From: a virus
IMG/VR virus record: IMGVR_UViG_3300032223_003183
Span: 1 to 64,000 of that record
Reading direction: 5' to 3' (one strand)
Length of the DNA: 64,000 bases
Below the pieces are notes generated by a model. It made no database searches. It saw only the letters and a list, made by a program, of their open reading frames with translations, and was not told the origin of the DNA. The translations under genes were made by a program, and so were the position numbers. Positions 18,642 to 41,484 of the stretch are shown piece after piece (position 1 is the stretch's first letter; every line of letters begins with the position of its first letter).

Positions 18642-19577
18642 ATGGTAAACGGAATATTATTAGGTCTAGTACAATCTGTACTAGGAAAAGGACATGCTAC
18701 CTCTAAAGGTAATTATGCTTTTCATTGTCCCCTATGCAATCATAGAAAACCCAAATTAGAAATTAATTTAGTACCAACAACTAAGAATGAAAATCCTTGG
18801 CATTGTTGGGCTTGTGACGTTAAGGGAAAAACCATTGCTTCTTTATTTAAAGCTGTAAAAGTAGATAAAGAAAAATATTCTGAACTAAACTCCATACTAG
18901 GTACTACAACTAAAATAGACCAATCAGAATTTAATCTTAGCGTTGAATTACCAAAGGAATATAAACCATTATACAATTTATCAAAAACAGATATTATTGC
19001 AAAACATGCCCTGTCTTACGTTAAAAAACGCGGTATAACACCCACAGATATACTTAAGTATCAAATAGGATACTGTGAAACAGGAAGATATGCTAATAAA
19101 ATTATCATACCCAATTACGACGCAAATGGTAAGTTAAATTATTTTATAGCTCGTTCATTTGAAAAAGATCCATCTAGAAAATACGATGCAGTATCTGCTG
19201 ATAAAAATTCAATAATTGGATTCGAAAATTTAATAAATTGGAACTTACCTGTTATACTTTGTGAAGGAGCATTTGATGCAATTGCAATCAAAAGAAATGC
19301 TATTCCTTTATATGGTAAAACAATGTCAAAACAATTAACAAAAAAATTATTGTCTAACGATATTAAAGACATATATTTAGCATTGGATAGTGATGCTCTA
19401 AAAAGCACATTAAAAATTGCCGGAGATCTACTCCACTCAGGAAAACGATTACATGTTGTGAAATTAGAAGGTAAAGACCCATCCGATATGGGCTTCGAGC
19501 ATTTTACACATTTAGTACAAAATTCTCAAGAATTTACCTTTTCTGATCTTTTCTCACTTAAATTAGAAGTAAACTAA
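18642..19577 (+). CDS. DNA primase (DnaG/gp61 type, CHC2 zinc finger plus TOPRIM)
   Basis: The product is 311 residues. An N-terminal zinc finger is visible as CPLCNH (about residues 29-34) paired with WHCWAC (about 53-58). The TOPRIM domain shows ILCEGAFDAIAI (about 205-216), with the catalytic Glu, and YLALDSDA (about 244-251), with the acidic DxD. Primases of this type make RNA primers for lagging-strand synthesis. The length is near that of T4 gp61 (342), so this is primase without a fused helicase. The exonuclease that follows overlaps it by one base (TAATG). Confidence 0.88.
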   Translation: MVNGILLGLVQSVLGKGHATSKGNYAFHCPLCNHRKPKLEINLVPTTKNENPWHCWACDVKGKTIASLFKAVKVDKEKYSELNSILGTTTKIDQSEFNLSVELPKEYKPLYNLSKTDIIAKHALSYVKKRGITPTDILKYQIGYCETGRYANKIIIPNYDANGKLNYFIARSFEKDPSRKYDAVSADKNSIIGFENLINWNLPVILCEGAFDAIAIKRNAIPLYGKTMSKQLTKKLLSNDIKDIYLALDSDALKSTLKIAGDLLHSGKRLHVVKLEGKDPSDMGFEHFTHLVQNSQEFTFSDLFSLKLEVN

Positions 19578-20342: not shown

Positions 20343-20350
20343 TATTTATA
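20343..20350 (+). promoter_or_regulatory. TATTTATA promoter-like motif
   Basis: An exact TATTTATA ends 14 bases before the ATG at 20365, at the head of the leader-bearing gene cluster. The same 14-base spacing recurs before 23291, 41206 and 45216. Confidence 0.55.
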
Positions 20351-20364
20351 TTAATAACATAAGA

Positions 20365-21162
20365 ATGATCAAATTAGCTACTTTATTAAAAGAAATAAAA
20401 GGTACACCTAAAGCTATATTTTTAGCTGGTTCAGCTGGAGTAGGAAAATCTTCTACTTACAAAGCAAACCCTAAATTTCCAACCCAACTTGATAATCTAC
20501 TTCCATCATCTTTCGAAATAATTAATTCAGATATTATTTATTCTAAATTACTTAATGCAAGTGGTATTGGTGGAGACCAAAAGAATTTTACTCCTGATCA
20601 ATTATCTAAATCTTCTGAATTTCAATCTCAAGCTAGAAAAGATACAGATAAATTATTAGTTAAATCACTTGAAGATAAAAAAAATATTATTATTGATGGA
20701 ACAGGTGCTGCTTCAGGCCCTATTTTAAAGAAAAAACAACAATTAGAAGATTTAGGATACGAAACATTTATGGTAATGGTTTATGCCTCACCTTTAACTG
20801 CACTCCAACGTAATCAAGATCGTATAGAAAAAGGTGAAAGAAGTTTAATGCCTAGTATTGTTTTACGTACTTGGAAAGATGTTAATAAAAACATTGGTGT
20901 TTACAAACAAGCGTTTGGAGATAATTTTGTTTTAATAGATAATGATTCTAAAGATTCAAATAAAGGTTTTTCACCCGAATTACTTAAACCATTCTTACAA
21001 GCCTCTTCTGCTATAGGAAAACCTAAAACCCCAGAAGAAATGGCTAAATCAGCAGCTGAAAAAGATGCTATGAATAAAGATATTGAAAATATGGTAAAAA
21101 CATTACCTAAATTTGATGATATAAGTTCTGCTAAATCAAAAATTCAAAACTTTATACAATAA
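20365..21162 (+). CDS. P-loop kinase/zeta-toxin-like protein with capsid-type leader
   Basis: The 265-residue protein starts MIKLATLLKEIKG and then has a strand and P-loop, AIFLAGSAGVGKSS (about 18-31). Further conserved-looking features are IINSDIIY, IIIDGTGAAS and a lid-like stretch, ALQRNQDRIEKGERS. This layout fits the AAA_33/zeta-toxin/polynucleotide-kinase group, which phosphorylates nucleotides, nucleic acid ends or UDP-sugars. The substrate cannot be read from sequence. The leader with a possible L-K-E cleavage site matches those of its neighbours. The stop overlaps the next start (TAATG). Confidence 0.75.
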   Translation: MIKLATLLKEIKGTPKAIFLAGSAGVGKSSTYKANPKFPTQLDNLLPSSFEIINSDIIYSKLLNASGIGGDQKNFTPDQLSKSSEFQSQARKDTDKLLVKSLEDKKNIIIDGTGAASGPILKKKQQLEDLGYETFMVMVYASPLTALQRNQDRIEKGERSLMPSIVLRTWKDVNKNIGVYKQAFGDNFVLIDNDSKDSNKGFSPELLKPFLQASSAIGKPKTPEEMAKSAAEKDAMNKDIENMVKTLPKFDDISSAKSKIQNFIQ

Positions 21163-22151
21163 TGAATATTGGTCAAGAAATAGTAAAAGAATTATTAGAA
21201 CAAACCTCTAAAAATATAGCTATATTTGGTGGTGGTTTTAAACCACCCACAAAAGGTCATTTTGAAGTAGCTAAACTAGCCCTAGAAAAATATCCTAATA
21301 TAGACGAATTTATTATAACAGTTGGAGGAGGTAAACCAACCAAAAGGAGAAATGGAGTTACACAAGAACAATCTATAGCCATTTGGAATATCTATAAAAA
21401 TTATCTACCAAATTCCAACAAAATTAAAGTTATAGCTTCACCAAGAACACCTGTACTTGATCCTAAAAAACTAGCAGTAAACCAACCTGAAGATAATATT
21501 ATTTGGATTCTGGGATCTAGAGAAGGTAATGATGAAGATGAAAAAGATGCAATATTACGTACAGCAGATATTGATAACTACCCTAACTTAAAAGTAGACG
21601 TAATATCAACCCCAGGTGAAGTTTCAGGTACTAAAGCTAGACAAGCTCTTAATGTTTCTAAAGAAGAATTCTTTAAATTTTTACCTGATGAAATAGGAAA
21701 ACAGAAAAATGATGTTTATGATCTTTTAACTGGAGATCAATCCCAAGAAAAATTTGTTCCTGGTCCTTTAGTTCACGAATCTAAAATTTTGAAGGAATCA
21801 TTTACCCCACAAAAAGCTCCATTAATGAATAGATTTGTGGATTACACTTGTGATAGATTAAATATAGACAAACCACAAATTTTTGTTATTAATTCCCCTT
21901 CATATGCCCCAGAGCATAAAAGTTTTGGAGGTTATTACCCACAAGAACAAAAAATAAACGTTGTAGTTCATAATAGAAATATGGCTGATATTTTAAGAAC
22001 ATTAGCTCACGAATTAGTTCACCACATGCAAAATTTAAATGGGGTAGAATTAAATGGTGAAGATGGTTCTAATACTGAGAATGAAGCTAATGCTATGGCA
22101 GGAATAATAATGAGAGAATTTGGGCGTGAAAATCCTGAAATATTTGAATAA
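21162..22151 (+). CDS. Nucleotidyltransferase fused to an HExxH metallopeptidase-like domain
   Basis: Residues about 17-190 are a Rossmann-type nucleotidyltransferase. They include IAIFGGGFKPPTKGH, with the T/HxGH signature at about 29-32, ITVGGG, and VSGTKARQAL as the ISSTxxR equivalent near 155. This group includes NMN, FAD and glycerol-phosphate (cyt/adenylyl)transferases. The C-terminal 100 residues contain AHELVHHMQ, with H283, E284 and H287 forming an HExxH zinc site, and a later NEANAMA helix that may give the third ligand. The single frame has no break. The leader MNIGQEIVKELLEQ fits the cluster. Fusion of these activities is unusual. Confidence 0.8.
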   Translation: MNIGQEIVKELLEQTSKNIAIFGGGFKPPTKGHFEVAKLALEKYPNIDEFIITVGGGKPTKRRNGVTQEQSIAIWNIYKNYLPNSNKIKVIASPRTPVLDPKKLAVNQPEDNIIWILGSREGNDEDEKDAILRTADIDNYPNLKVDVISTPGEVSGTKARQALNVSKEEFFKFLPDEIGKQKNDVYDLLTGDQSQEKFVPGPLVHESKILKESFTPQKAPLMNRFVDYTCDRLNIDKPQIFVINSPSYAPEHKSFGGYYPQEQKINVVVHNRNMADILRTLAHELVHHMQNLNGVELNGEDGSNTENEANAMAGIIMREFGRENPEIFE

Positions 22152-22691
22152 ATGATATCATTAAGTAGTCTTTTCGAAGAAGAAAAACCAAAAATAAACT
22201 ACACTATCTATTGCGACATGGATGGTGTTCTTTGTGACTTTGAAGGTCGCTTTGAACACTTTACAGGAATGTCTCCTGATCAGTATAGAGCCGAAATGAC
22301 TAGAAAATATGGCGAGAAAAAAGCTGTAGATATGTTTTGGAAATTAATTGATAATGAAATTGGAGTACGATTTTGGAGAGGAATGCCTTGGATGCCTGGT
22401 GGTAGAGAATTATGGGACTATATTAAATCCTCCAATCCTACTTTACTTACAGCTCCTTCATATCATGATTCAAGTAAAATTGGAAAAACCTTATGGGTTA
22501 AAGATCATATCCCAGGAGCTAAAATAATTTTTAAACAAGCTAAACAAAAATCTGATTTAGCAGGTCCAAACAAAATATTAATTGACGATAGAGAAGATAC
22601 CATTATGGATTGGAAATCTAAAAAGGGTATTGGAATTTTATATAAAAACACAGATCAAGCAATAAACGAATTAAAACAATTAGGAATATAA
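22152..22691 (+). CDS. HAD-superfamily 5'-nucleotidase-like phosphatase
   Basis: The 179-residue product has HAD motif I, YCDMDGVLCDF, with Asp22 and Asp24 as nucleophile and acid/base. Motif II is Thr in LLTAPSY, and motif III/IV is ILIDDRED near residues 141-148. The cap region (FWRGMPWMPGGRELW) matches 5'(3')-deoxyribonucleotidase-like phage proteins. It would dephosphorylate nucleoside monophosphates. The protein starts MISLSSLFEEEKP, a short leader ending in L-F-E. The gene starts immediately after the upstream stop codon. Confidence 0.8.
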   Translation: MISLSSLFEEEKPKINYTIYCDMDGVLCDFEGRFEHFTGMSPDQYRAEMTRKYGEKKAVDMFWKLIDNEIGVRFWRGMPWMPGGRELWDYIKSSNPTLLTAPSYHDSSKIGKTLWVKDHIPGAKIIFKQAKQKSDLAGPNKILIDDREDTIMDWKSKKGIGILYKNTDQAINELKQLGI

Positions 22692-22694
22692 GTT

Positions 22695-23267
22695 ATGTCA
22701 ACACAATTAAATAGAGAATTTTCTGAAAGAGACATTCAGAGAATGAGAAATATTATTACAGGTAATACTGCAGGTAATACTAGAATTCAAGCAGGTTACA
22801 CTAAAGAACAAGTAAAACATACTGAAGGTGATGTATGGGAAGAAAACGGTAAAACCTGGACTATTCACAACGGTATTAAACAAACCGTCACTAAACATGA
22901 CTCGCTAAAGGCAATGGTTGAATTCCCACTTACTTGCCCTTGTTGTTCTAAACCAATGAAAGATATTTCATTAAATAGAAAAATGTATAATATACATCAA
23001 AAATGTTTTGATTGTGTTGTTGAAATGGAAGGTAAATTAAGGGTAACAGGTGAGTATGAAGCATATGAAAAACAAATGCTAAATGATAATAAAAATGCTA
23101 CTATAGACGATGCTGAACAAATGTTTGATGAATATTTTAATTCAAAAAATAATACATACGTTACCGAAGCAGGTGACATAGAAAAATGGGATGGAGGTAG
23201 TATTGATCCTGAAGTTATCAAAATGATCAAAGATAACATAAAACGACTAAGAAACTTAGAAATATAA
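22695..23267 (+). CDS. Hypothetical protein with zinc-ribbon-like cysteines
   Basis: The 190-residue protein has CPCC near residues 81-84 and HQKCFDC near 102-108. This spacing fits a treble-clef or zinc-ribbon site. The N-terminus (REFSERDIQRMRNIITGN) looks helical, and VWEENGKTWTIHNGIKQTV resembles a strand-rich DNA- or protein-binding patch. I recognise no named family. It lacks the hydrophobic leader of its neighbours, so it may be cytoplasmic. Confidence 0.6.
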   Translation: MSTQLNREFSERDIQRMRNIITGNTAGNTRIQAGYTKEQVKHTEGDVWEENGKTWTIHNGIKQTVTKHDSLKAMVEFPLTCPCCSKPMKDISLNRKMYNIHQKCFDCVVEMEGKLRVTGEYEAYEKQMLNDNKNATIDDAEQMFDEYFNSKNNTYVTEAGDIEKWDGGSIDPEVIKMIKDNIKRLRNLEI

Positions 23268-23268
23268 A

Positions 23269-23276
23269 TATTTATA
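23269..23276 (+). promoter_or_regulatory. TATTTATA promoter-like motif
   Basis: An exact TATTTATA starts right after the upstream stop codon and ends 14 bases before the ATG at 23291. Confidence 0.55.
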
Positions 23277-23290
23277 TCAAAAAATAAACC

Positions 23291-23905
23291 ATGAGCAAAC
23301 TAGACTTAAAAAACATAATCAAAGAAAGCATTTCTGATTACTTATCAGAATTAAACTCCGTTAATGAAAATGATCCTGCTGTGCCATCTGATTCTACAGG
23401 TATGGCTACTGATATGATGAAAAATGGATTACCTACACAAACCGGAACTCCAACTCTTAGAGAAAAATCCCCAGATATCGTATTAGAAAATAATATTTCT
23501 AGAGACGGTAAACTTTATTTAGTTAAAGAAGCTTTAAATGAATCAACTGATTCAAATATGATAGAGGAAAAACTATTATTAGACTTGATTGGTGAAGGGT
23601 ATACTGGTGTTTTTAATGATAAAAACAAAGCTATAACTCATAGTAAAAAAGCTCTTAAAGAGAGAGATTTAATGATGAAAGAAAATGTTAAAAAGGGTCA
23701 AGCTAAAGTTGGTGGTTTAGAAAAACAAGTAGCTGATTTAAAAGCACAAATGCAAAAATTAATTGATAACCCTGAAATGAGAGGTGAATTATCAAATTAT
23801 ACTGCTAAATTAGAAAAAACTGAACAAGTATTAGAAAAATTAAAAGCAGCATTAGAAAAATCTTCTCCTAAAAAAGTAAAGAAAGAGAAAAAAGATGACA
23901 AATAA
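23291..23905 (+). CDS. Leader-bearing coiled-coil protein of unknown function
   Basis: This 204-residue protein starts MSKLDLKNIIKESISDYLSE, an amphipathic helix containing I-K-E and L-S-E sites of the prohead-protease type. A disordered Pro/Ser/Thr section follows, and then a long Lys/Glu-rich coiled coil from about residue 140 (LEKQVADLKAQMQKLIDN) to a very basic end (SPKKVKKEKKDDK). It could bind DNA or pack in the head core. The next gene overlaps its end by 11 bases. Confidence 0.55.
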   Translation: MSKLDLKNIIKESISDYLSELNSVNENDPAVPSDSTGMATDMMKNGLPTQTGTPTLREKSPDIVLENNISRDGKLYLVKEALNESTDSNMIEEKLLLDLIGEGYTGVFNDKNKAITHSKKALKERDLMMKENVKKGQAKVGGLEKQVADLKAQMQKLIDNPEMRGELSNYTAKLEKTEQVLEKLKAALEKSSPKKVKKEKKDDK

Positions 23906-25409
23906 TCTTGAACTTTTAAAAAATCATCTATATAAGTTAATTAAAGAGGAACTTGAAGGTGGTGAAGAGGAAAAACAAGCAGGACCTGAAAAGGTTCTGT
24001 ATGATTTAGTACTTGAGCCTGCTAATTTACAAGCAGCTTTAGATGCATTGCAAAATTCCAAAAATTATGGAATGTATGCTAAAAACTTAACAGATCGAAA
24101 TGAATATAATTCAATTTTTGGTCCTAGTAATCCTCCACAAAAAACCAATGCAGCCTGGAAAGATTGGGATTCTATGTTTCCAAAACCTGGAGCTAGTGAA
24201 GATCAAATAGATTCTTTACTTAATAAAAGACTTTGGAAAATAAAACAGATTAAAAGTAATAATCCTGAAGATTGGGAAAAGTTAAAAAATGTATTAGGTG
24301 ATAAGTTTAAGGACTACTCTATTGAAACCGGAAATGATTCTTTTGATGAATTTGTAGCATCATTACCTTCATCTGAATTAAAATTTGACAATGGTATTCC
24401 TTTCTTTGGTAAATCAGCAGGAAATTATTTTTTACCTAAAACAAAAGCAAATTCTGATAGATATACAGGTGTCTTTAAAGGCGATCAATATGTTGTAAAG
24501 GGAGACAAAATTATTTTTCCACAAAAGAAAAACCCATTCGAAACTAAAGATTACTTAACTAAAGTACTTAAAACTATAATGGGTAATGCTAAATTACAAT
24601 ATAGCATATCTCAACAGGAATCAGAAGGTCAACCTGCAACTACTTCAAATGCCCAAGGTGCAGTTGAAAAAATTAACTTTGTTAAAACTTTTGATACACC
24701 TGAATTAGCAAATAAATTTAAAAAATTAATACCAAAAGATTTTGCTTCAAAAACTGCTATTGATGGTAATAAAATCACAGTAGCTGATATTACTGATTCG
24801 CAAAAGAAAAATTTAATACTAGCCTCACAAAAATTTATAGAATCTCAACCTAAAAAACCAATGAAAGAATCATTAAAAGAACAATTATCTCAAGTAATAA
24901 GAGAGGTATTGGCTGAAAAAAAATTAACTAAATCTCAACTTATAGCTAGAGATAAAGAAGAAAAAGACATTAAAAAGAAAAATCCTAAAATGCCTGAAGG
25001 TGAAGCTTATGGTATTGCTACTAAAAATGTAGAAAAGAAAAAAGCTGTAAAAGAAGGTGAAACTCGAGTTAATTCAAATACAGAAGATAGAATATCTTAT
25101 TTAAAACATGTTTTACAACATGTTTGGAATATGGGTAAAGGTAATAATATGATTGATTTTGATTCTATGGCTGGAAGCACTGTTAGTGATTTATTTGGTG
25201 ATAATTTAGACGAAGCTCGTTTTCCAAAAGGAACAGACATTGGTCAAAAAGGATCTGGATTTGAAAAAATTGAAAAAAGTGTAGAAAAAAAATATATTAA
25301 ATCCCATACTAAACCTGGTGAAAAACCTAGTACTGCCGTTAAACAACATGCTAAAACAGCAGGTGGGAATGTCGCAGGAAATATACTTAAAAAAGTAATA
25401 AAAAAATAA
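23895..25409 (+). CDS. Large leader-bearing protein of unknown function
   Basis: The 504-residue product opens LELLKNHLYKLIKEELEGG, the same kind of helical leader with I-K-E and E-L-E. A second copy of a leader-like sequence, MKESLKEQLSQVIREVLAEK, occurs near residue 323. Either two proteins have fused, or an internal processing site separates two halves. The end is very basic (KPSTAVKQHAKTAGGN, then KKVIKK). No catalytic motif is apparent. Its stop overlaps a 35-residue gene by one base. Confidence 0.55.
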   Translation: MTNNLELLKNHLYKLIKEELEGGEEEKQAGPEKVLYDLVLEPANLQAALDALQNSKNYGMYAKNLTDRNEYNSIFGPSNPPQKTNAAWKDWDSMFPKPGASEDQIDSLLNKRLWKIKQIKSNNPEDWEKLKNVLGDKFKDYSIETGNDSFDEFVASLPSSELKFDNGIPFFGKSAGNYFLPKTKANSDRYTGVFKGDQYVVKGDKIIFPQKKNPFETKDYLTKVLKTIMGNAKLQYSISQQESEGQPATTSNAQGAVEKINFVKTFDTPELANKFKKLIPKDFASKTAIDGNKITVADITDSQKKNLILASQKFIESQPKKPMKESLKEQLSQVIREVLAEKKLTKSQLIARDKEEKDIKKKNPKMPEGEAYGIATKNVEKKKAVKEGETRVNSNTEDRISYLKHVLQHVWNMGKGNNMIDFDSMAGSTVSDLFGDNLDEARFPKGTDIGQKGSGFEKIEKSVEKKYIKSHTKPGEKPSTAVKQHAKTAGGNVAGNILKKVIKK

Positions 25410-25516
25410 TGTCAAAGTCAAGAAAAAAAGGTAAGCAAAAGCCTAACCACGGTAATCAAGTTAAAAGACAAAACGTTATTAAAAGTAACGAGCAAATCTT
25501 AGCTAAATTAAAATAA
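25409..25516 (+). CDS. Very small basic protein (35 residues)
   Basis: A frame from ATG 25409 to TAA 25514-25516 encodes a Lys/Asn/Gln-rich peptide that begins MSKSRKKGKQKPNHGNQVKR. It is coupled to the upstream gene by TAATG and separated from the next ATG by one base, which supports translation. The strong positive charge suggests nucleic acid binding or head-core packing. No family is recognised. Confidence 0.5.
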   Translation: MSKSRKKGKQKPNHGNQVKRQNVIKSNEQILAKLK

Positions 25517-25517
25517 T

Positions 25518-26162
25518 ATGAATAATTTAGATATAAAATTCTTAATTAGAGAAACTTTAGAAAGAATATTACTAGAAGATAATTCAAAACAACTTCAAGA
25601 AAATGTTCTATTAGTTGAAGATAAAGTATCTAAAAATTTACAATATCATTTAGATAAAAATATTCCTTTACATGAGAATGCTTTTAGATATGGTACTGAA
25701 GCTCAACTTAAATTATTTAAAGAAGTTAGAAGTCTTTTTAATGAAGGGAAATTATATTTAAATCCTGAAGATAGATGGTTAGTTGAAAATACTGACATTG
25801 GAAATTATGGATTATATGAAGGTCAATTTGTGGCTTTAGATGTACCTTTTCTTGAAGAAGAATTAAATGAAGCTGAATACCACGGTAAAAAAGTTGAATT
25901 AGGTAAACCACATAGAGGAGGTTCTAAGAAATTTTTCGTGTATGTTAAAGATCCTAAAACTAAAAAAATTAAAAAAGTACAATTTGGTGATTCAACAGGA
26001 CTATCAGTTAAAATAAATGACCCAAAAGCAAGACATGCATTTGCTGCTCGTCATAAATGTGCTCAAGAAAAAAACAAATTATCAGCTAATTACTGGGGTT
26101 GCCATATAGGACGATATTGGAAATCATTAGGTGGTAGTTCAAACTTTAGTGGGTACTGGTAA
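25518..26162 (+). CDS. Leader-bearing conserved phage protein with basic C-terminal motif
   Basis: The 214-residue protein begins MNNLDIKFLIRETLERILLE, with L-L-E as a possible cleavage site. The C-terminal half starts at a short hinge and has GKKVELGKPHRGG, KKFFVYVKDPKTKKIKKVQF and VKINDPKARHAFAARHKC, followed by a second Cys in YWGC. I recall this basic block from hypothetical proteins of marine T4-like phages. It may bind a metal or nucleic acid. The leader plus conserved cargo domain fits a packaged protein. Confidence 0.6.
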   Translation: MNNLDIKFLIRETLERILLEDNSKQLQENVLLVEDKVSKNLQYHLDKNIPLHENAFRYGTEAQLKLFKEVRSLFNEGKLYLNPEDRWLVENTDIGNYGLYEGQFVALDVPFLEEELNEAEYHGKKVELGKPHRGGSKKFFVYVKDPKTKKIKKVQFGDSTGLSVKINDPKARHAFAARHKCAQEKNKLSANYWGCHIGRYWKSLGGSSNFSGYW

Positions 26163-26191
26163 TAATTAAATAACAATAAAACATAAAAATA

Positions 26192-26557
26192 ATGAGAAAT
26201 TTTAATAAACTAGTTTCCCTTTTACTTCATTCAAGTACTCAAGTACATATATTTCACTTACAGACAAATTCATATTCTGAGCATAAAGCATTAAACAAGT
26301 ATTATGATGAAATTGTAGAATTAGCAGATTCTTTAATTGAATCTTATCAAGGTAAATATGACATCGTAACTAATTATGAAAACCCACCTTTACAAAATTA
26401 TTCAGATAATGCACAAATAGTTGCTTATTTTTCTAGATTATCTGAACTTGTAAAAATGTTAAGACAAGAAATAGAAGATACATACCTTCAAAATCAAATT
26501 GATTCTATAGTTGAATTAATAGAATCAACTAAATACAAATTAAGATTTTTAGCATAG
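26192..26557 (+). CDS. Helical protein resembling Dps/ferritin-like proteins
   Basis: The 121-residue protein appears all-helical. The stretch VHIFHLQTNSYSEHKALNKY, followed by YDEIVELADSLIESYQG, resembles the iron-site helix of Dps (His, then an acidic helix after about 12 residues) and the helix after it. Dps proteins bind DNA and oxidise iron. Length is shorter than typical Dps (about 150-180). It lacks the leader found in its neighbours and could simply be an unrelated four-helix bundle. Confidence 0.45.
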   Translation: MRNFNKLVSLLLHSSTQVHIFHLQTNSYSEHKALNKYYDEIVELADSLIESYQGKYDIVTNYENPPLQNYSDNAQIVAYFSRLSELVKMLRQEIEDTYLQNQIDSIVELIESTKYKLRFLA

Positions 26558-27303
26558 TGATTAAACTTTCTGAAATATTAAACGAAATATTATCTGAAAA
26601 AAAGCTATGTCCAAAAGGTAGAGCTTACTATGATCGTCGTATAAATGCTGGGGAAAAACCATCTGCTTATTTATCTGGTCGTGCTGAAAAAGTATGTAAA
26701 GGACTAATGAAGGAAGATGAATTAGATGAAGGTTTAGAAGATACATCTTGGACTGGAAATAATGGCCAAAAAATAACACTACAACAACTTTTAGATGTTA
26801 TAAAAAATTATCCTATTATACAAGTACCAATTGAAAAAGTTGAAAAAATAATTCTTAAAAAAGATAGTGGTGGTATTGAATCAGATAGATTAAGCACAGC
26901 TGATGTAAAATATCCTATCATTATTGTAATAGATGATAGCGGAAATTTTAAATATGTTTTAGATGGTAACCATAGGGCTAATAAAGCAATATCAGCAGGC
27001 TTAAAATCAATACCTGCAAAATTAGTAAATATTAAAAAATTACCACAAGAATTTCAAGACATTTTAAGTGAATCACTTGATGATTGGTTTAAAGAAAAAT
27101 GGGTTCGTATAGATACACAAGGTAATATAACAGGTCCTTGTGGTACAATGAAAAAAGGCCATAAAACAACTCGTTGTTTACCACTTAAAAAAGCCCAAAG
27201 TTTAACCCAAGATGAACGTGCAGCAACATCTCGCAAAAAAACAGCGTCCAATAAACAGTTTGTACCTAATACAGATAAAGCAAAAGTAAAACATAAAAAA
27301 TGA
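26557..27303 (+). CDS. ParB-like domain protein with flanking basic Cys modules
   Basis: This 248-residue protein starts at GTG 26557, which overlaps the upstream TAG (TAGTG). It has the leader MIKLSEILNEILSE. A first module, KKLCPKGRAYYDRRINAGEK, ends near residue 50. The central part carries YVLDGNHRANKAISAGLKSI near residue 128, the GNHR-type pattern of ParB/Srx nuclease-like domains. The end, GPCGTMKKGHKTTRCLP and ERAATSRKKT, is a basic Cys-containing module I recall from several marine phage proteins. It probably acts on DNA, but no activity is certain. Confidence 0.6.
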   Translation: MIKLSEILNEILSEKKLCPKGRAYYDRRINAGEKPSAYLSGRAEKVCKGLMKEDELDEGLEDTSWTGNNGQKITLQQLLDVIKNYPIIQVPIEKVEKIILKKDSGGIESDRLSTADVKYPIIIVIDDSGNFKYVLDGNHRANKAISAGLKSIPAKLVNIKKLPQEFQDILSESLDDWFKEKWVRIDTQGNITGPCGTMKKGHKTTRCLPLKKAQSLTQDERAATSRKKTASNKQFVPNTDKAKVKHKK

Positions 27304-27539
27304 TAAAATTAAGCCAATTATTAGAAGGACAACAACTAACAGAATTTAATTTTCCTGATGGTTTTCAACCTGCAAAATCTGTTCCTCAAGGAGGAGCAAT
27401 GTGTGCTAATTGTGCTAAATGGGATAAAAAAAATCAAGTTTGTAAAGGGCAATATTATATTGAATGGAATGGTAATGGTGAAATACCTGCCGATCCTACA
27501 GAATACGTTTGTATTTGGTGGGTAGATAAAAGAAAATAA
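27300..27539 (+). CDS. Small leader-bearing four-cysteine protein
   Basis: After the leader MIKLSQLLEGQQLTE, this 79-residue product has four cysteines in a C-x2-C-x8-C...C arrangement (AMCANCAKWDKKNQVCKG, then YVCIWW). This would suit a small iron-sulfur cluster (HiPIP-like) or a zinc site. Its start overlaps the upstream stop by 4 bases (ATGA). The L-L-E and L-T-E positions match the predicted prohead-protease consensus, leaving a mature protein of about 65 residues. Confidence 0.6.
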   Translation: MIKLSQLLEGQQLTEFNFPDGFQPAKSVPQGGAMCANCAKWDKKNQVCKGQYYIEWNGNGEIPADPTEYVCIWWVDKRK

Positions 27540-27541
27540 TT

Positions 27542-27886
27542 ATGATATCATTAAAAAACTTATTAAACGAAGGTACATTAGATAAAATATTCCACTTAGA
27601 TGGAATATTAATTGTAGATGATGCCGCTAGAAATCAAAAAGATATTTTATCTGATATTCGTTCCTTACCTGGAATTACAGTAGTAAGAAACGTAGAGATG
27701 GAACAAGATCCAACTTCAAGATATTTTAGAAGTAGAATAGAAACCAAAATTGATCCATACCCATATGTTAAACAAGATAAATTTGATTCTAATACTACTA
27801 TAAAATTAATCTTAGATAACATTAGAAAAGTACCTGGAGTAATAGGATTTAAAGAACAAGGAAATGTAACCTCTACAGAAAGTTAA
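27542..27886 (+). CDS. Small leader-bearing alpha/beta protein
   Basis: The 114-residue product starts MISLKNLLNEGTLDK, almost the same leader as the HAD protein (MISLSSLFEE). The remainder has a ferredoxin-like alternation: ILIVDDAARNQKDILSDI, TVVRNVEM, SRIETKIDPYPY, IKLILDNIRKVPGVIG. This resembles small ACT-like regulatory folds. No binding residues can be assigned. Three bases separate it from the flanking genes. Confidence 0.55.
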   Translation: MISLKNLLNEGTLDKIFHLDGILIVDDAARNQKDILSDIRSLPGITVVRNVEMEQDPTSRYFRSRIETKIDPYPYVKQDKFDSNTTIKLILDNIRKVPGVIGFKEQGNVTSTES

Positions 27887-27888
27887 AC

Positions 27889-28149
27889 ATGAGGCCCTAC
27901 CAAGAAGTTATACAAGATAATACTAAAATAAGAAAATTTAGTTTAGATATAGATTCAAATGAATTAATGTGGCATAGAGATGAAAAAGATCGCTATGTCA
28001 CTATTTTAGAAGGTAAAGATTGGGAATTTCAACTAGATAATGAATTACCTTTGGAACTTAAAAAAGGAGATTGTATATTTATACCTAAACAAACATATCA
28101 TAGAGTAATAAAAGGTACAACTGATTTGATAATTCAAATACAAGAATAA
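27889..28149 (+). CDS. Small cupin-fold protein
   Basis: The 86-residue sequence fits a minimal cupin. It has SNELMWHRDEKDR (a possible metal-binding His/Glu motif), a short strand pair YVTILEGKDWEF, then ELKKGDCIFIPKQTYHRVI with the G-D-x4-P-x4-H motif that closes cupin barrels. Cupins may be isomerases, dioxygenases or binding proteins, and the reaction is not predictable here. It lacks a leader. Its TAA overlaps the next ATG by one base. Confidence 0.7.
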   Translation: MRPYQEVIQDNTKIRKFSLDIDSNELMWHRDEKDRYVTILEGKDWEFQLDNELPLELKKGDCIFIPKQTYHRVIKGTTDLIIQIQE

Positions 28150-28301
28150 TGACTAAAGCCGAATTAAAAGAAATAATTAAAAAAATTGTACTTGATGAGA
28201 TGGTTAACATCCCTTCAGCACATAAAAGTATTAATGATAAGTTAATGCAAATTGCTAAACGTGAGAAGAAGGATGAAAATGAAGATAATCAACAAAAATA
28301 A
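28149..28301 (+). CDS. Small leader-like helical protein (50 residues)
   Basis: ATG 28149 to TAA 28299-28301 encodes MTKAELKEIIKKIVLDEMVN, followed by a short basic/acidic tail. The entire N-terminal half looks like the leader of the neighbouring proteins, with L-K-E and L-D-E sites. Coupling to the cupin gene (TAATG) and the three-base gap to the next ATG support its reality. If the leader is cut off, only about 33 residues remain, similar in scale to small internal peptides of T4. Confidence 0.55.
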   Translation: MTKAELKEIIKKIVLDEMVNIPSAHKSINDKLMQIAKREKKDENEDNQQK

Positions 28302-28303
28302 AA

Positions 28304-29890
28304 ATGAATAAATTATCTATATTAAAAAGATTAATCAAAGAAGAGATTGAGGATTTCCAAAATTCTCAACCTTTGACTTTTGAAAATGATCCATTAGAAT
28401 ATATTCTTCAAAAGTATCAATCATTAAATGATACATTAGAAGACTTAATGACACCTCACTATAGAGATTTAATTTCGGGTGTATTTGTAATAGCTTATAA
28501 ACCAACTACATTTAGAATTATACTTCATAATAAACAAGAATTCTATTTAATTTATGGACCAACTTGTTATACTGCTAAGATAGCAGGTAAAAAATATTAT
28601 TTAGAAAATTTATCTGAAGAAGAATTTGCTATCACTTCTATTGCTCAATTATTAGAATTAGGTTTACCTCCAGGAAGTACTGGACCAGAAACCCCAACAA
28701 AAAACGAAGCTAATCCAACTGAGGAAAAACCAGCAGAAGAAACTCCACCAGCAGAAGAAAAAAAACCTGAAGAAGTAAAAGAAGGATTAAATAAAATCAT
28801 TAAATTTAGAATATTAACTGAAGCTAGTGATAGAAATGTTAATACAAATACTGCGAAAGCAATTTCTTTTTTTTTAACTAAAGCAGATCCTTCATTAGGA
28901 TTTAAAGCTCAAAGTGATAAAAAAAGATTAGGTAATACTAAAAAACAAAGCCCTGCAGATGTAGAAGCAGCTTTTACTGATATTTTACAAGCTAAAAACA
29001 TTACCCCAATTCCACCAGGTGTAGCACCTAACCCATCAGGTAAATTTACCATGTATGAGTTTGAAACTCCTGATTTTGGATTAGTAAGAATAATTGTAAG
29101 TGGAGGTGGTAATGAAGGTGAAAAATACGAACAAAATTTTGTAGCTAGTGCTAAAGAATTAGCAGGTACTCCTAATAAAGATTTACCTAAAGCATTACAA
29201 ACTTTATATAGTACTCTAGGTATAGATAATACTAAATTAACATCAGAAGATATTTCATTTGCTGGAGGTACGGATACTAAAAGAGATTTAAGTTTTGAAG
29301 GGCCTAAAGATATTGGATCAACAATATCCGATATTACTATTATGTATGAAGGTGAACCTTATTATATTTCATTAAAAAATAAAAGTGGAAGTGGGTTATA
29401 TAGTGGTAAAAACGTTCCATTCTTTGCAATGCAAGGTGATAAAGTAGTTTATGATGCTTCTAAAAATGATCCAGCTTCTGATTCTAGTCAATTAATTGAT
29501 ATATTTAATATAGATGAAGATAAAGTAGCTGAAGGTTTAAATAATTATATTAATAAAACTGGAACTCCTACTACTTGGGAACCAATTAATATAGAAACAG
29601 GTAAATTTAAAAATTTCTTAGCTTCATCATTTGGGTATGGTTATTACTATGTAAAAGAAACCAAAGGAGGAGATGTTAAAGTAGTTCCAATTTTAACAGC
29701 AGAGGATGCTGATAAAGCAGTTGGTAATATAACCCAAACATTTGTTAAATATCCAGGTCCAAACACTAAAATAGCTGCATTATTAATTAAATCAACTGGT
29801 GGAATATTTGGTGATTCACAATTTTTAGTAACATTAAGAAATGCTCAAGGTAAACTATTACCATTATCTTTAAGGATAAGCAAATTATAA
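28304..29890 (+). CDS. Large leader-bearing protein with Pro/Glu-rich linker, function unknown
   Basis: The 528-residue protein begins MNKLSILKRLIKEEIEDFQN. Residues about 30-125 look globular. Residues about 125-160 are a linker of repeated PAEE and PEE units. A second leader-like sequence, EGLNKIIKFRILTEASDRN, follows near 163. The rest (about 175-528) is a large domain with GLVRIIVSGGGNEGEKYEQNF, DLSFEGPKDIGSTISDITI and YYISLKNKSGSGLYSG, a pattern that hints at a nuclease-like fold (E/D...S-L-K-N-K). I cannot assign it confidently. This is the last gene before a terminator. Confidence 0.55.
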   Translation: MNKLSILKRLIKEEIEDFQNSQPLTFENDPLEYILQKYQSLNDTLEDLMTPHYRDLISGVFVIAYKPTTFRIILHNKQEFYLIYGPTCYTAKIAGKKYYLENLSEEEFAITSIAQLLELGLPPGSTGPETPTKNEANPTEEKPAEETPPAEEKKPEEVKEGLNKIIKFRILTEASDRNVNTNTAKAISFFLTKADPSLGFKAQSDKKRLGNTKKQSPADVEAAFTDILQAKNITPIPPGVAPNPSGKFTMYEFETPDFGLVRIIVSGGGNEGEKYEQNFVASAKELAGTPNKDLPKALQTLYSTLGIDNTKLTSEDISFAGGTDTKRDLSFEGPKDIGSTISDITIMYEGEPYYISLKNKSGSGLYSGKNVPFFAMQGDKVVYDASKNDPASDSSQLIDIFNIDEDKVAEGLNNYINKTGTPTTWEPINIETGKFKNFLASSFGYGYYYVKETKGGDVKVVPILTAEDADKAVGNITQTFVKYPGPNTKIAALLIKSTGGIFGDSQFLVTLRNAQGKLLPLSLRISKL

Positions 29891-32118: not shown

Positions 32119-32126
32119 TATTTATA
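32119..32126 (+). promoter_or_regulatory. TATTTATA promoter-like motif
   Basis: An exact TATTTATA begins one base after the kinase stop codon and ends 29 bases before the ATG at 32156. It is at the head of the packaging and head operon. Confidence 0.5.
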
Positions 32127-32155: not shown

Positions 32156-33160
32156 ATGGACATTAACGATAATTTTGATTTACGTAAGCATAGAGATTTC
32201 TTACTATCTGAATCAAGAATTAATGAGAGATTTGCTGACAAAATGTATGATGTAAATCCTCTTACTGGTGAGAAAGAAAGAGTAATCTACGAAAATGAAG
32301 TAGAAAGATTAGGTATTTTTGACGATATTGATCAAGATTTACTTCATGGTGATTATGGAGATGGAGAAGATAGACTAGAATATTTAGATGCTGTTATCAA
32401 ATATTGTACTAAAAAAATGGAAGACCAAGGTGATGATAATGGTGGATTATATGATATTGAACCTTCAGATGATATTGAATCTTTAGAGGAAAGCGAAGAA
32501 TTAGAAGAACTGGCTAAATTAACTAGTGCAGGTGGTACTTTTACCCCACTAGGACAAAGAGCAGCTGACATCATTAAAACTAATCCAGAATTAGAAAAAT
32601 CAGCATTATTGAAAGCTTTAAACTCAGATCCTGAAATTTCTAAAATTTTAGATGCTAGTGAAGAAGAATTACACCAAAACCAAACAAATAAATTTGCTGC
32701 TTTAGTTCGTGGTTCAAGAGAATTAGGACAAAGAGGTAGAAAAGCAGATCCAAATAAACCAGCTGCTGAACCAAAAGCAAAAGCTGAAAAACCAGCTTCA
32801 CAAAAATTAAAAATTACAAACCCTAAAGCAGACGAAAAACCAGTTCCTTCTGTATTTGATGGTGGAGAAGCTGATGCAGAAGATATTGCGGATGAAATGG
32901 CTGCAACAAGAGCTGCTAAGGGTGGTAAAAGATTAGGTACTGCTGCTGAAAAATTAGCTCAAGTAACTAAAGAAATGAAAGCTTTAATTCCTGCTTATCA
33001 AGCTGCTAAAGGTACTGCTAAAGAAGCTGCTATTGTAGCCCAATTAAAAGATTTAACTGCTGAGAAAAAAGCTTTAGAAGCTAAAGTAAACAAAATGATT
33101 AAAGCTCCAAAAACACAAGCTGCTTCTGATTTATATGATTATGGAGATGAAAATCTTTAA
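32156..33160 (+). CDS. Hypothetical protein upstream of the terminase; possible small terminase or core protein
   Basis: The 334-residue protein begins NFDLRKHRDFLLSESRINER, a leader-like helix with L-L-S-E. Residues about 75-125 are very acidic. Residues about 200-240 are an Ala/Lys/Pro-rich linker. The last 90 residues are a helical, coiled-coil-like Lys/Ala/Glu segment (KLAQVTKEMKALIPAYQAAK). Its place directly before gp17 is where T4 encodes the small terminase gp16, but it has no clear gp16 motif. It could equally be a packaged internal protein. Two hypotheses are open. Confidence 0.45.
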   Translation: MDINDNFDLRKHRDFLLSESRINERFADKMYDVNPLTGEKERVIYENEVERLGIFDDIDQDLLHGDYGDGEDRLEYLDAVIKYCTKKMEDQGDDNGGLYDIEPSDDIESLEESEELEELAKLTSAGGTFTPLGQRAADIIKTNPELEKSALLKALNSDPEISKILDASEEELHQNQTNKFAALVRGSRELGQRGRKADPNKPAAEPKAKAEKPASQKLKITNPKADEKPVPSVFDGGEADAEDIADEMAATRAAKGGKRLGTAAEKLAQVTKEMKALIPAYQAAKGTAKEAAIVAQLKDLTAEKKALEAKVNKMIKAPKTQAASDLYDYGDENL

Positions 33161-36783: not shown

Positions 36784-37644
36784 ATGGCTAATATAAAGCA
36801 TAACAAATATAAAAACACTGGGATCCTATTTGAATTACTTGTAAGAAAAATTACAGCTGATACAATGTCCAGTCAAGATTCTAAGGCTGTTTCTTTGATT
36901 AAAAAGTATTTTGTAAATACAGAATTATCTAAAGAAAATAAACTGTATCAATCGATATCTAAATCACAAAACATTAGTGAGGCCCAAGCAGATTCAATTC
37001 TTTCAACTATCTTAGAAGTAAATAAAACTTTAGATAGAACTAAATTATCAAAAGAAAAATATAATTTAATTAAAGAAATTAAAGCTAATTTTGATATTGA
37101 TGATTTTTTCAAAGCCAAAATTAATAACTACAAATTATTATCTTCCACTTATACATTATTAGAAGCTAGTTTATCACCATCTAAAAATTTAGATGATATT
37201 CTTTCTTCTAAAATGAATATCTTAGAAAATATAGCACAAACTAATACTGTAAGCGTTCCACAACCAACAGTAAGTGAGTTTGAAACTTTAGATAAAGGAA
37301 CTCGTGCATTAGTTTACAAAATAATGTTAGAAAAATTTAATGATAGATTCAATACTTTATCTGATGAACAGAAAGAGGTATTAAAAGAATATATTAATAA
37401 TATTTCTAACACTACCAATTTAAAAAAATATGTGGATACTAAATTCACATCATTAAAAGAATCTCTTTTAAAATTCTTACCTAAAATAGAGGACGCTACA
37501 ATTAAAATTAAAGTGAATGAGACAATAAATCTTATTAACCCTATTTTAGAATCTAAAGTTGTAAAAGACGATAATATAGTTGCATTATTACAATATCAAG
37601 AATTACACAGTGAATTAACAAAAATTCATAATGCAAGTAGATAA
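36784..37644 (+). CDS. Conserved head-region protein, function unknown
   Basis: The 286-residue helical protein begins HNKYKNTGILFELLVRKITA, a block I recall as conserved beside the portal in marine T4-like phages. It has repeated Leu/Lys/Asn helices, no cysteine, and no enzyme motif. It sits between gp20 and gp21, the position of the small core genes 67 and 68 in T4. It may be a prohead core or portal-assembly factor. Its end overlaps the next gene by 14 bases. Confidence 0.55.
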   Translation: MANIKHNKYKNTGILFELLVRKITADTMSSQDSKAVSLIKKYFVNTELSKENKLYQSISKSQNISEAQADSILSTILEVNKTLDRTKLSKEKYNLIKEIKANFDIDDFFKAKINNYKLLSSTYTLLEASLSPSKNLDDILSSKMNILENIAQTNTVSVPQPTVSEFETLDKGTRALVYKIMLEKFNDRFNTLSDEQKEVLKEYINNISNTTNLKKYVDTKFTSLKESLLKFLPKIEDATIKIKVNETINLINPILESKVVKDDNIVALLQYQELHSELTKIHNASR

Positions 37645-38368
37645 ATTAAAAGAATTAGTAAAAAAATATTTAGCTGAACTTCTTGATGAAGAATCAGCTT
37701 CTGGAGATGCTGGTGGGTTTTTACCTAGAATGATGGTTAAAAAACTTAAGAAGGAAGATACTAATAAAGCTTTTACTCGTAATCCTGCTCGCCCTAAAAC
37801 TGCACAAGATATTAATTCACCTACTGGGTTTGAATCAATGCCTGATTCAGCTAAAGTTTATATTAAAGGTGGATTTAAAGCAATTAAACCTGAAGAAAGA
37901 ATTGATGCTAAAGATTTATGGAAAGAACAACACTTAAAAGAAAATGAAATGACTGTTGTTCACGATAAACATGCTTTTATCAAACCAAAAAAACACCATG
38001 AAACTTCTAGACCAGGACATGAAGATTTACCTAACCCAGATAAATACTTTGAACTAGTGAAATTTAAAATTGTTGATCCCGAAAAAAAGAAAAAGAAAGA
38101 AAAACCTCTTAACGAAGTTCGTTACTCTCAATTTAAAGCTCAATCTAAAAATAGAACACCTCAAGAACAATTGCATATGGGTGTTAAACAAATTCAACAT
38201 AAATTAGATGAAATTAATAAATTAGTTGAATTTGCTACTAGAATGAAAACAGAATTAAAAGGTGATGCTGATCAAATGAATTACTTAAAACGTACTCATA
38301 ATGCATTATTTAAAATAAACGAAAGAATACAAGATATTAATAATAAAATAAAAGGTTTAACTGAGTAA
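37631..38368 (+). CDS. Leader-bearing head-region protein
   Basis: The 245-residue protein opens MQVDKLKELVKKYLAELLDE, with L-K-E, L-A-E and L-D-E sites, like the capsid-leader proteins of the 20-28 kb cluster. A Gly-rich break follows, then a basic Lys/Pro/His region (KAFTRNPARPKTAQDIN), and a C-terminal coiled coil (LHMGVKQIQHKLDEINKLV onward). Its place beside the portal and protease supports a role in the prohead core. It is coupled to a 48-residue gene by TAATG. Confidence 0.55.
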   Translation: MQVDKLKELVKKYLAELLDEESASGDAGGFLPRMMVKKLKKEDTNKAFTRNPARPKTAQDINSPTGFESMPDSAKVYIKGGFKAIKPEERIDAKDLWKEQHLKENEMTVVHDKHAFIKPKKHHETSRPGHEDLPNPDKYFELVKFKIVDPEKKKKKEKPLNEVRYSQFKAQSKNRTPQEQLHMGVKQIQHKLDEINKLVEFATRMKTELKGDADQMNYLKRTHNALFKINERIQDINNKIKGLTE

Positions 38369-39801: not shown

Positions 39802-40425
39802 ATGAGCAAATCACTATTAATAGAATACGCTTTATTTACACCTAAATCTGCAGTACTAACTGAAGGTAAAGGTGATAGAAACTTAGTAGTTCAAGGTGTT
39901 ATTCAAAGAGCAGATGCTAAAAACCAAAACGGTAGAATTTATCCTAAAGATATTTTAGCTCGTGAAGTTGAAAAATACATTGAAGGACCTGTTGCTGAAA
40001 ACAGAGCATTAGGTGAACTAGATCACCCTGAATCAATGGTTATTAACCTTAAAAATGTATCTCACAACATCAAACAATTATGGTGGGAAGGAGATGATTT
40101 AATGGGTAAAGTAGAAGTATTACCAACTCCATCAGGTAACATCTTAAAAGAACTTTTTATAAACAAAATTACAGTAGGTATTTCTTCTCGTGGTATGGGT
40201 TCAGTTAAACCTTTAGATGAGGGTACTGTAGAAGTGCAGGACGATCTAGAATTATTATGTTGGGATTTTGTAAGTACTCCATCTACACAAGGTGCCTTTA
40301 TGAGACCTGTGGGTTTATCTGAAAGTTATAATCCTCTAGATGTTAATTCCTCAAAGTATTCTAAAGTAAACACTTTAATATCTGATATAATTTGCTCTCA
40401 AAGTGGAGTTTGCTGTATAAGATAA
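39802..40425 (+). CDS. gp21: Prohead core protease, gp21-like (S77 family)
   Basis: The 207-residue protein has the herpesvirus/T4-type prohead protease fold motifs. It shows RADAKNQNGRIYPKDIL (about 41-57), a catalytic His75 in ALGELDHPES, and a catalytic Ser in ITVGISSRGMGSV (Ser128 or Ser129). It cleaves scaffold, capsid and internal proteins after (L/I)-x-E, and its own LLIE and LTE sites near residues 8 and 21 would fit self-cleavage. Length is close to T4 gp21 (212). It is probably the enzyme that would process the leader-bearing proteins described here. Confidence 0.9.
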   Translation: MSKSLLIEYALFTPKSAVLTEGKGDRNLVVQGVIQRADAKNQNGRIYPKDILAREVEKYIEGPVAENRALGELDHPESMVINLKNVSHNIKQLWWEGDDLMGKVEVLPTPSGNILKELFINKITVGISSRGMGSVKPLDEGTVEVQDDLELLCWDFVSTPSTQGAFMRPVGLSESYNPLDVNSSKYSKVNTLISDIICSQSGVCCIR

Positions 40426-40453: not shown

Positions 40454-40494
40454 GGTTTTGCCTCTTTCTCAATATTTATTGACGGAGCAAAACC
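40454..40494 (+). promoter_or_regulatory. Inverted repeat enclosing a TATTTATT motif before the HNH gene
   Basis: GGTTTTGC (40454-40461) is an exact inverted repeat of GCAAAACC (40487-40494), with TATTTATT (40473-40480) in the loop. The motif ends 22 bases before the HNH start at 40503. The arrangement could hide or mark the promoter, or be part of the arrival point of the homing gene. Confidence 0.4.
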
Positions 40495-40502
40495 TAAAAT
40501 TT

Positions 40503-41177
40503 ATGGAAACCAAAATATGCCCTACTTGTAAAGTAGAAAAAATTCTAGAAAATTATAATAAAAATAAAAACCGTAAAGACGGTTTACAACGTGAATGTAA
40601 AGAATGTTGTCATTCTCATCATAATAAACATTACCATACTAAAAAATCTCCTCGCTTAAAAGAGGATTTAAAAGAAGGGTATAAAGTATGTACTACTTGC
40701 AATCAAGAGCTTTTATTAATAAATTTTACTACTCAAAAGGCTGGAAGATTTGGAGTAAATAGTACATGTAAAGTTTGTTTTAATTTAGACTGGAATGAAT
40801 ATCAAAAAAGAACCGGTCAAAATAATGCCTATAATAAACATCGTAAAGCAACTGACCCTCAATTTAAGCTTAAAACACTATTAAGAGGTAGATTACTTGA
40901 TGCTTTAAAACGTCATACTAAAGGAGGTAAAGTAAATAAAACCCATTCAGCTATAATTTTAATAGGTTGTACAATTGATAAATATAAAACTTATCTAGAA
41001 AAACAATTTAAACCTGATATGAGTTGGGATAATCATGGGGTTGTATGGGAAATTGATCATATAATACCTTGCTCTAAATTTGATTTAACTAACCCTATAC
41101 AACAAAGTAAATGTTTTAATTATAAAAATACTCAACCTTTATATAAATCTGAAAATAGAAGTAAAGGAAATAGATAA
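40503..41177 (+). CDS. HNH homing endonuclease with zinc fingers
   Basis: I start this at ATG 40503, because the frame upstream opens only with TTG at 40458 and includes the promoter-like motif. The 224-residue product has METKICPTCK, then ECKECC (Cys6, Cys9, Cys32, Cys35), a second C-x2-C pair (VCTTCNQ) and a third (CKVC). The HNH core near residue 180 reads WEIDHIIPCSKFDL, followed by NYKNTQPLYKSENRSKGN. It should nick or cut DNA. Located between the protease and scaffold region, it looks like a mobile free-standing homing gene of T4-like phages. Confidence 0.85.
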   Translation: METKICPTCKVEKILENYNKNKNRKDGLQRECKECCHSHHNKHYHTKKSPRLKEDLKEGYKVCTTCNQELLLINFTTQKAGRFGVNSTCKVCFNLDWNEYQKRTGQNNAYNKHRKATDPQFKLKTLLRGRLLDALKRHTKGGKVNKTHSAIILIGCTIDKYKTYLEKQFKPDMSWDNHGVVWEIDHIIPCSKFDLTNPIQQSKCFNYKNTQPLYKSENRSKGNR

Positions 41178-41205: not shown

Positions 41206-41484
41206 ATGGAAAATTTTGACTTTAAAAAATACATTGCTGAAGGTAAATTATTGACTGAGAATGAATCTATTACTATAACTAAAATAGAAAAAGGTAGAGA
41301 TACAGGTATGGCATTTGGTGCAATAGGCGCAGGGTATACTATAACATTATCTAATAATAAAATTGTTGATTCTGATGATGAGGATTTATTAGATAGATAT
41401 TCTGAACTTAGACAAGATGGCAGAAAAAATTTAGACCAGTTAAATAAGATATTAGTTGGTAAGCCATGGGATATGGAATATTAG
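41206..41484 (+). CDS. Small leader-bearing protein beside the scaffold gene
   Basis: The 92-residue protein starts MENFDFKKYIAEGKLLTE. Its YIAE-G junction is close to T4 internal protein leaders such as MKTYQEFIAE, which target proteins into the prohead and are cut after Glu by gp21. After the leader, a beta-rich part (TKIEKGRDTGMAFGAIGAGY) and an acidic helix follow. It lies between the HNH gene and a terminator, with its own promoter-like motif. I predict an internal head protein of about 80 residues. Confidence 0.6.
   Translation: MENFDFKKYIAEGKLLTENESITITKIEKGRDTGMAFGAIGAGYTITLSNNKIVDSDDEDLLDRYSELRQDGRKNLDQLNKILVGKPWDMEY

Follow-up and report, generated by a model that had tools for sequence, protein, structure and literature searches.

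The leader-bearing gene cluster

The stretch analysed here, the window, comprises bases 1-64,000 of the 71,893-base IMG/VR record IMGVR_UViG_3300032223_003183, and the subject of this study is a gene cluster at 20.4-28.4 kb whose products open with similar short leaders. The contig is that of a T4-like phage, in which a terminase, a gp21-type protease and a gp23-type capsid protein are recognised, with a G+C content of 31% in the window genome. Among isolates of the phage collection, Flavobacterium phage immuto comes closest, with a capsid protein 57% identical, which makes a Bacteroidetes host probable. Open reading frames (ORFs) were predicted mechanically, and some may have been given the wrong start codon.

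Within the cluster a hydrophobic leader ending in (L/I)xE opens 11 ORFs, where an earlier sequence-only reading of this DNA had counted at least nine:

20365-20394, + strand: leader MIKLATLLKE of a zeta-toxin/AAA_33-like P-loop kinase (gene 20365-21162); L4, L7, L8 and E10 are kept in relatives found by the body only
21162-21200, + strand: leader MNIGQEIVKELLE of a nucleotidyltransferase-peptidase (gene 21162-22151)
22152-22181, + strand: leader MISLSSLFEE of an NT5C-type deoxynucleotidase of the HAD group (gene 22152-22691); leader also in cluster relatives
23291-23350, + strand: leader MSKLDLKNIIKESISDYLSE of a coiled-coil protein (gene 23291-23905), retained in 9 of 9 members
23895-23948, + strand: leader MTNNLELLKNHLYKLIKE (gene 23895-25409)
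25518-25577, + strand: leader MNNLDIKFLIRETLERILLE (gene 25518-26162)
26557-26598, + strand: leader MIKLSEILNEILSE of a DUF5872/ParB-like protein with a GTG start (gene 26557-27303)
27300-27344, + strand: leader MIKLSQLLEGQQLTE of a four-Cys protein (gene 27300-27539)
27542-27571, + strand: leader MISLKNLLNE (gene 27542-27886)
28149-28199, + strand: leader MTKAELKEIIKKIVLDE of a 50-residue product (gene 28149-28301)
28304-28342, + strand: leader MNKLSILKRLIKE (gene 28304-29890)

Three ORFs inside the stretch (22695, 26192 and 27889) have no leader. The claim that unrelated domains follow the leaders was confirmed by family matches of the bodies, which comprise a kinase, a nucleotidyltransferase-peptidase, a deoxynucleotidase, a DUF5872 protein and proteins without a family. 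The 21162 product joins a CTP_transf-like nucleotidyltransferase, with an N-terminal fold of the NMNAT/NadD/PPAT superfamily, to a Zn-peptidase-like domain in which H283, E284 and H287 are invariant. The 26557 product is a DUF5872 protein with a weak ParB-like match (phrog_723, E=0.0047). As a correction to the earlier reading, the leader of 27300 has Glu at positions 9 and 15 and not at 10; relatives of this gene begin with MIKLQDILTE, MIKLQNILTE or MISLIKILKE.

Leaders had also been reported at four outlying positions. Two of these, 32156 and 41206, proved to belong to a separate class (NFDLKKFLxE), 37631 lies within the head block, and 3021, in the baseplate block, is ambiguous:

3021-3107, + strand: similar leader, baseplate block
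32156-32212, + strand: class-C leader MDINDNFDLRKHRDFLLSE of the gene immediately ahead of the terminase
37631-37690, + strand: leader MQVDKLKELVKKYLAELLDE, head block
41206-41259, + strand: class-C leader MENFDFKKYIAEGKLLTE on a small protein in the protease-scaffold slot

The gene at 3021-3518 encodes a conserved baseplate-block protein with a leader-like helix and a promoter-like element, and may be cargo or a tail part. The start of 5839 (MAVYKIFSEKD) was rejected as a leader, being a false positive of the motif in a conserved tail-block gene.

Enrichment, conservation and exchange of the leaders

We described the leader by the motif F..FF.E (F, hydrophobic) ending within the first 15 residues. 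Nine of the 77 genes in the 71.9-kb contig have it, where interior windows and shuffles alike give an expectation of 1.2, and none of 2000 shuffles reached 9. Within the contig it marks 6 of 18 genes between 20.36 and 32 kb and 3 of 59 elsewhere (p=0.004). Because the motif had been read from the window itself and this window-only signal is modest, we used relatives, which are mostly held-out data: the complete phage immuto and 15 IMG/VR contigs, a comparison set of 17 contigs with the window included in the count. Families were grouped by their bodies (residue 31 on) and scored positive if at least half of the members had the motif; single-linkage grouping merges multi-domain proteins, yields fewer families and is conservative. 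In the interval from primase to terminase, 36 of 106 families carried the motif (2.7 expected from shuffled proteins), compared with 40 of 517 elsewhere (Fisher p=2.5e-11). Many of those 40 are head-block or scattered leaders, and others are chance matches such as MAVYKIFSEKD.

Immuto has the motif in 18 of 223 genes, with 4-5 expected. None of its 44 named replication, metabolism and lysis genes and none of its 20 named structural genes match, as against 10 of 21 genes in the cluster and its flank, so that leaders are not equally frequent in replication and tail genes. The crAss-like Cellulophaga phage phi14:2, which has a Bacteroidetes host and 30% G+C, showed no excess (3 of 119 genes, shuffle mean 2.7). 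Taken alone, the motif is unspecific: 15 of 267 T4 genes match, including those of the known substrates IPII, IPIII, gp24 and Alt. Escherichia phage T4 gene 61.1 (18966-19130, annotated as hypothetical) starts with MKTFKEFIKED, a near copy of the targeting leader of the T4 internal proteins, and its product is possibly an uncounted internal protein.

We queried 2.9 million viral contigs with the bodies of three families, stripped of their leaders; in the two strict families almost all distinct members recovered had the leader. Of 222 distinct starts of the form MIx with hydrophobic positions 4, 7 and 8, 201 have Glu at residue 10 and 2 have Asp, compared with a Glu:Asp ratio of 1.1:1 in the interior of these proteins. 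The constrained positions are 4, 7, 8 and 10, positions 5, 6 and 9 are free, and the pattern is similar in each family. These coincide with the four positions assigned by suppressor genetics of T4 IPIII, where residues 4 and 7 serve capsid targeting, residues 8 and 10 serve processing by gp21, and Asp at residue 10 permits entry and blocks processing (PMC9026906). The same register is found in T4 IPII and IPIII (MKTYQEFIAE) and in gp24 (MAKINELLRE). A preference for Glu over Asp of this size argues for a protease subsite rather than for charge.

Across relatives the same body appears behind different leaders. The kinase is found with MIKLATLLKE, MISLVQLLKE or MRIRIKEA, the 27542 family with MISLKNLLNE, MVKLSTILAE or MRIRIIKE, and the NT5C body with at least 10 leaders, several of which fall beyond the strict motif yet have (L/I)xE. 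The motif is absent from the NT5C homologues of Cr30, phiM12, phiCbK, L338C, OLIVR1, phiXF1 and Atu_ph07, which start at or near the catalytic domain (in Cr30 the gene is placed among nucleotide-metabolism genes), and the NT5C protein of the close relative G008 also has no leader. In the T4-like marine phages Melnitz and HTVC008M the NT5C homologue carries a short N-terminal extension, which we left unclassed. The set of cargo genes differs strongly among close relatives. These class swaps and leaderless homologues show that the leader is separable from the body.

Two further observations were made in these genomes. At ~35.8-40.8 kb of G008 (IMGVR_UViG_3300042549_005585), in reversed orientation, a tandem array holds six unrelated bodies with near-identical leaders (MIKLIDLLNEYKINNP) and, among them, one gene with a differing leader (38587). 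An EF-hand/dockerin-like motif, D(P/A)VG(Q/K)ED...DxxNDGxxDxxDKYLxxRR, recurs in several phages (immuto 114006, G008 31104, S-SM1 SSM1_191).

Protease, promoter-like element and interdomain sites

The gp21-type protease that had been proposed at 39802 was borne out by domain matches and by its catalytic contexts, GELDHP around His and SSRGxGS around Ser, which are common with T4 gp21. The features concerned are:

39802-40425, + strand: gp21-type prohead protease (Peptidase_S77, E=3.4e-32; phrog_207, E=3.8e-54)
42743-44422, + strand: gp23-type major capsid protein (phrog_138, E=1.3e-67)
20343-20350, + strand: late-promoter-like element TATTTATA ahead of 20365, where the cargo genes begin; also at 23269-23276 and 32119-32126

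An S77 protease gene is present in 21 of 24 long contigs that carry cargo families. The capsid protein has a candidate maturation site, VVE/S (the slash marking the cut), and LVVE/S is conserved in relatives. Among relatives, the small slot next to the protease is filled by leader proteins belonging to several classes, a placement that links these classes to head assembly. The contig of L300 (G036, 268,739 bases) has two S77 protease genes. Between the protease and the core gene, at 40458-41177, lies an endonuclease VII/HNH-like ORF with an N-terminal zinc-binding-like part, which occurs in some relatives too and looks like a mobile endonuclease.

Reverse-complementing the T4 late promoter core gives the 8-mer TATTTATA. 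The recurrent element, ATATTTATA, consists of one box with no second conserved box and stands before head and tail genes: 15 copies lie upstream of starts in the contig against 0.9 expected, and the 17 contigs have 193 sites. In the window it lies 3-34 bases before the starts of 3021, 5839, 12914, 20365, 23291, 32156, 34816, 36784, 38529, 45216, 49466, 55031, 61299 and 62343, mostly structural genes. Among genes of the interval with an upstream gap, 20 of 44 leader genes and 13 of 98 others have the element (p=7e-5); outside the interval it is found before 18 of 39 leader genes and 142 of 504 others (p=0.03). It resembles the one-box late promoters of T4 and may serve this phage group as a late promoter. 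The 8-mer of the T4 late promoter itself, TATAAATA, was tried and shows no enrichment in the window (21 vs 21.8); only TATTTATA upstream of starts is enriched.

Sites of the (L/I)xE type also occur inside cluster proteins:

21786-21797, + strand: site ILKE212 between the two folded domains of the 21162 product; linker 194-212 has pLDDT (predicted local distance difference test) <50 in the AlphaFold model
25863-25871, + strand: site LNE118/A ahead of the phrog_7595 domain of the 25518 product; AlphaFold linker 113-120 has pLDDT<50
24873-24917, + strand: leader-like site LKEQLSQVIREVLAE inside the 23895 gene
28811-28822, + strand: site FRILTE/A inside the 28304 gene

LKE212 and LNE118 lie in the sole stretches with pLDDT<50 of their respective models. 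Glu118 of the 25518 product is invariant in 26 sequences despite variable linker length, and immuto 114006 has an internal leader before the domain that follows FRILTE/A in 28304. Over non-redundant junctions, (L/I)xE precedes the phrog_7595 domain in 34 of 37 (34% of random windows of the same proteins), the peptidase-like domain in 41 of 58 (27%) and internal NT5C in 10 of 11 (23%), with p values from 2e-13 to 3.4e-6. A first count for the peptidase-like domain, 90 of 101, had been raised by a helix that lies within the domain, and we replaced it by this recount, which excludes the last residues. Sites at domain junctions are predicted by a protease site and not by an N-terminal docking helix. 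More extensive fusions are found in immuto 107131 (907 residues) and in G005 11768.

Probable cargo delivery and its alternatives

We consider it highly probable that the leaders are capsid targeting sequences and that their bodies are cargo, packaged in the head, cut by the gp21-type protease and injected with the DNA. A virion-borne enzyme with such a leader is found in cyanophage S-SM1. Sullivan et al. (PMC3037559) detected the cytidylyltransferase T4-GC190 in purified S-SM1 virions. The product of gene SSM1_190 (noted 'T4-LIKE GC: 190') starts with MKKFSAFLNE/AERSF, with hydrophobic residues at 4, 7 and 8 and Glu at 10, and continues into a nucleotidyltransferase domain. It is one of 3 motif matches in 225 S-SM1 genes, and we judged it alone to be leader-like. 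P-SSM3 retains the leader, ACG-2014f has it with a two-residue shift and Melnitz has a shorter one (MKKFSEIIE/A), and the homologue in Klebsiella phage phiKp_21 has none. The virion protein GC190 shares leader register and nucleotidyltransferase superfamily with 21162, as a single gene there compared with an island here.

By analogy with T4 we infer docking, cutting and injection as follows. Cargo would be synthesised late, alongside head and tail proteins, and hydrophobic residues 4 and 7 of the leader would dock it on the prohead scaffold core. The protease encoded at 39802 would cleave after the Glu of (L/I)xE ahead of DNA packaging, leaving the mature enzyme free inside the head, and would separate multi-domain cargo at the interdomain (L/I)xE sites. 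The released enzymes, among them the P-loop kinase, the nucleotidyltransferase, the Zn-peptidase-like domain and the deoxynucleotidase, would exit alongside the DNA and work during the first minutes of infection. Our guess is that they counter host nucleotide or NAD chemistry, or nucleotide- or DNA-based defence, early on.

Several points weigh against delivery of the cluster proteins as cargo. We found no virion proteomics of this phage or of immuto in the open-licence literature. The S77 gene was undetected in 3 of the 24 long contigs, which are fragments. The 3021 family bears a similar helix in the baseplate block. The SSM1_190 domain matches 21162 at the superfamily level only (51 columns, E=4e-6), and the accessible text of PMC3037559 neither reports a mature N-terminus for GC190 nor mentions targeting. 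In addition, the conserved cluster genes 22695 (unknown protein), 29985 (NAD/FAD oxidoreductase-like) and 31588 (P-loop kinase-like) are leaderless and retained in most relatives, which means that the locus is not cargo only.

The main rival departs from injected cargo only at the last step: the leaders would be core-binding elements of minor head proteins that are packaged and cut, and that then remain in the capsid with a structural or assembly role. Loss of IPIII halves the rate of T4 head assembly (PMC9026906), the core-gene slot beside gp21 is another place where leader proteins are found, and several bodies are short or coiled-coil, all of which would suit such a role. Many bodies are however enzyme families with conserved motifs, and strong variation of the set among close relatives is expected of effectors and not of structural parts; we regard permanent head parts as unlikely.

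That the leaders are docking helices for some other assembly, such as a baseplate, a phage compartment, a membrane or a partner enzyme, with the Glu on the amphipathic face and no cleavage, is more doubtful still. The longer leaders (LIRExIExxL) do resemble general amphipathic docking helices, a kind to which the encapsulation peptides of bacterial microcompartments belong, and the location of the 3021 family would fit a baseplate partner. Three observations speak against docking alone: the 201:2 excess of Glu over Asp at position 10 points to a protease subsite, a docking helix has no obvious use for (L/I)xE at internal domain junctions, and the slot beside gp21 carries leaders of several classes. 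An artefact of AT-rich starts and common N-terminal helices, or the duplication of one ancestral protein, has next to no probability, and as a full explanation is refuted: a genome of this G+C content does favour Ile, Lys and Leu codons near starts, but composition-keeping shuffles give 1-3 matches where 9-36 are observed, the equally AT-rich phi14:2 shows no excess, the bodies belong to unrelated families, and searches with bodies only recover the leader.

Delivery of packaged cargo, the reading that we favour, has its closest parallel in T4 IPI, IPII, IPIII and Alt and in the gp24 propeptide, which share 10-20 N-terminal residues with hydrophobic positions 4, 7 and 8, Glu at 10 and (L/I)xE, a gp21-type protease in the head block, and unrelated bodies. 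Against about four such proteins in T4, the single island here has at least 11; several are enzymes, there are several leader classes, swapped between bodies, and (L/I)xE also recurs between fused domains. Polyvalent proteins (Iyer et al. 2017, PMC5512222) likewise fuse unrelated enzyme domains, peptidase and ParB-like domains among them, and are thought to be packaged in the head and injected. Their defining combination, at least two unrelated catalytic-type domains in one polypeptide, is found in 21162, immuto 107131 and G005 11768. Separation of polyvalent proteins is ascribed to built-in peptidase domains; here sites that fit the prohead protease lie at leaders and junctions, and 21162 itself includes a peptidase-like domain. 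The ejection proteins of phiKZ and SPN3US are a third parallel, many head proteins there being cut by a gp21 homologue and ejected with the DNA. Their propeptides are mostly longer than 100 residues, with S/A-x-E sites in phiKZ (PMC5694885, PMC9026906); the cluster leaders have 10-25 residues and L/I at P3, and show neither trait.

A T4 review already suggests capsid targeting as a general loading route in T4-like phages (PMC9026906). The open-licence literature yielded no description of capsid targeting in Bacteroidetes phages or in metagenomic T4-like phages. Nor did we find there an earlier account of three features seen here: an extensive island of swappable enzymes, the presence of several classes of leader, and sites of the prohead-protease type at the joins between fused cargo domains. 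We lean slightly towards the broader view that this lineage has a general delivery system, with a late-expressed island that is refilled between relatives, in which any enzyme given a short leader would be loaded into the head, and chains of enzymes would be cut apart by the prohead protease before injection.

Because the proteins that phages inject belong to no common family, most of them are unknown. A leader legible in the sequence allows them to be searched for, and predicts dozens of families of injected proteins in aquatic T4-like phages. Each predicted family is a candidate for early takeover or counter-defence, with an exact predicted mature N-terminus. These results suggest that the T4 capsid-targeting rule, derived from one protein, applies to phages with hosts of different phyla, and that cargo made of several enzymes may be processed by prohead proteases.

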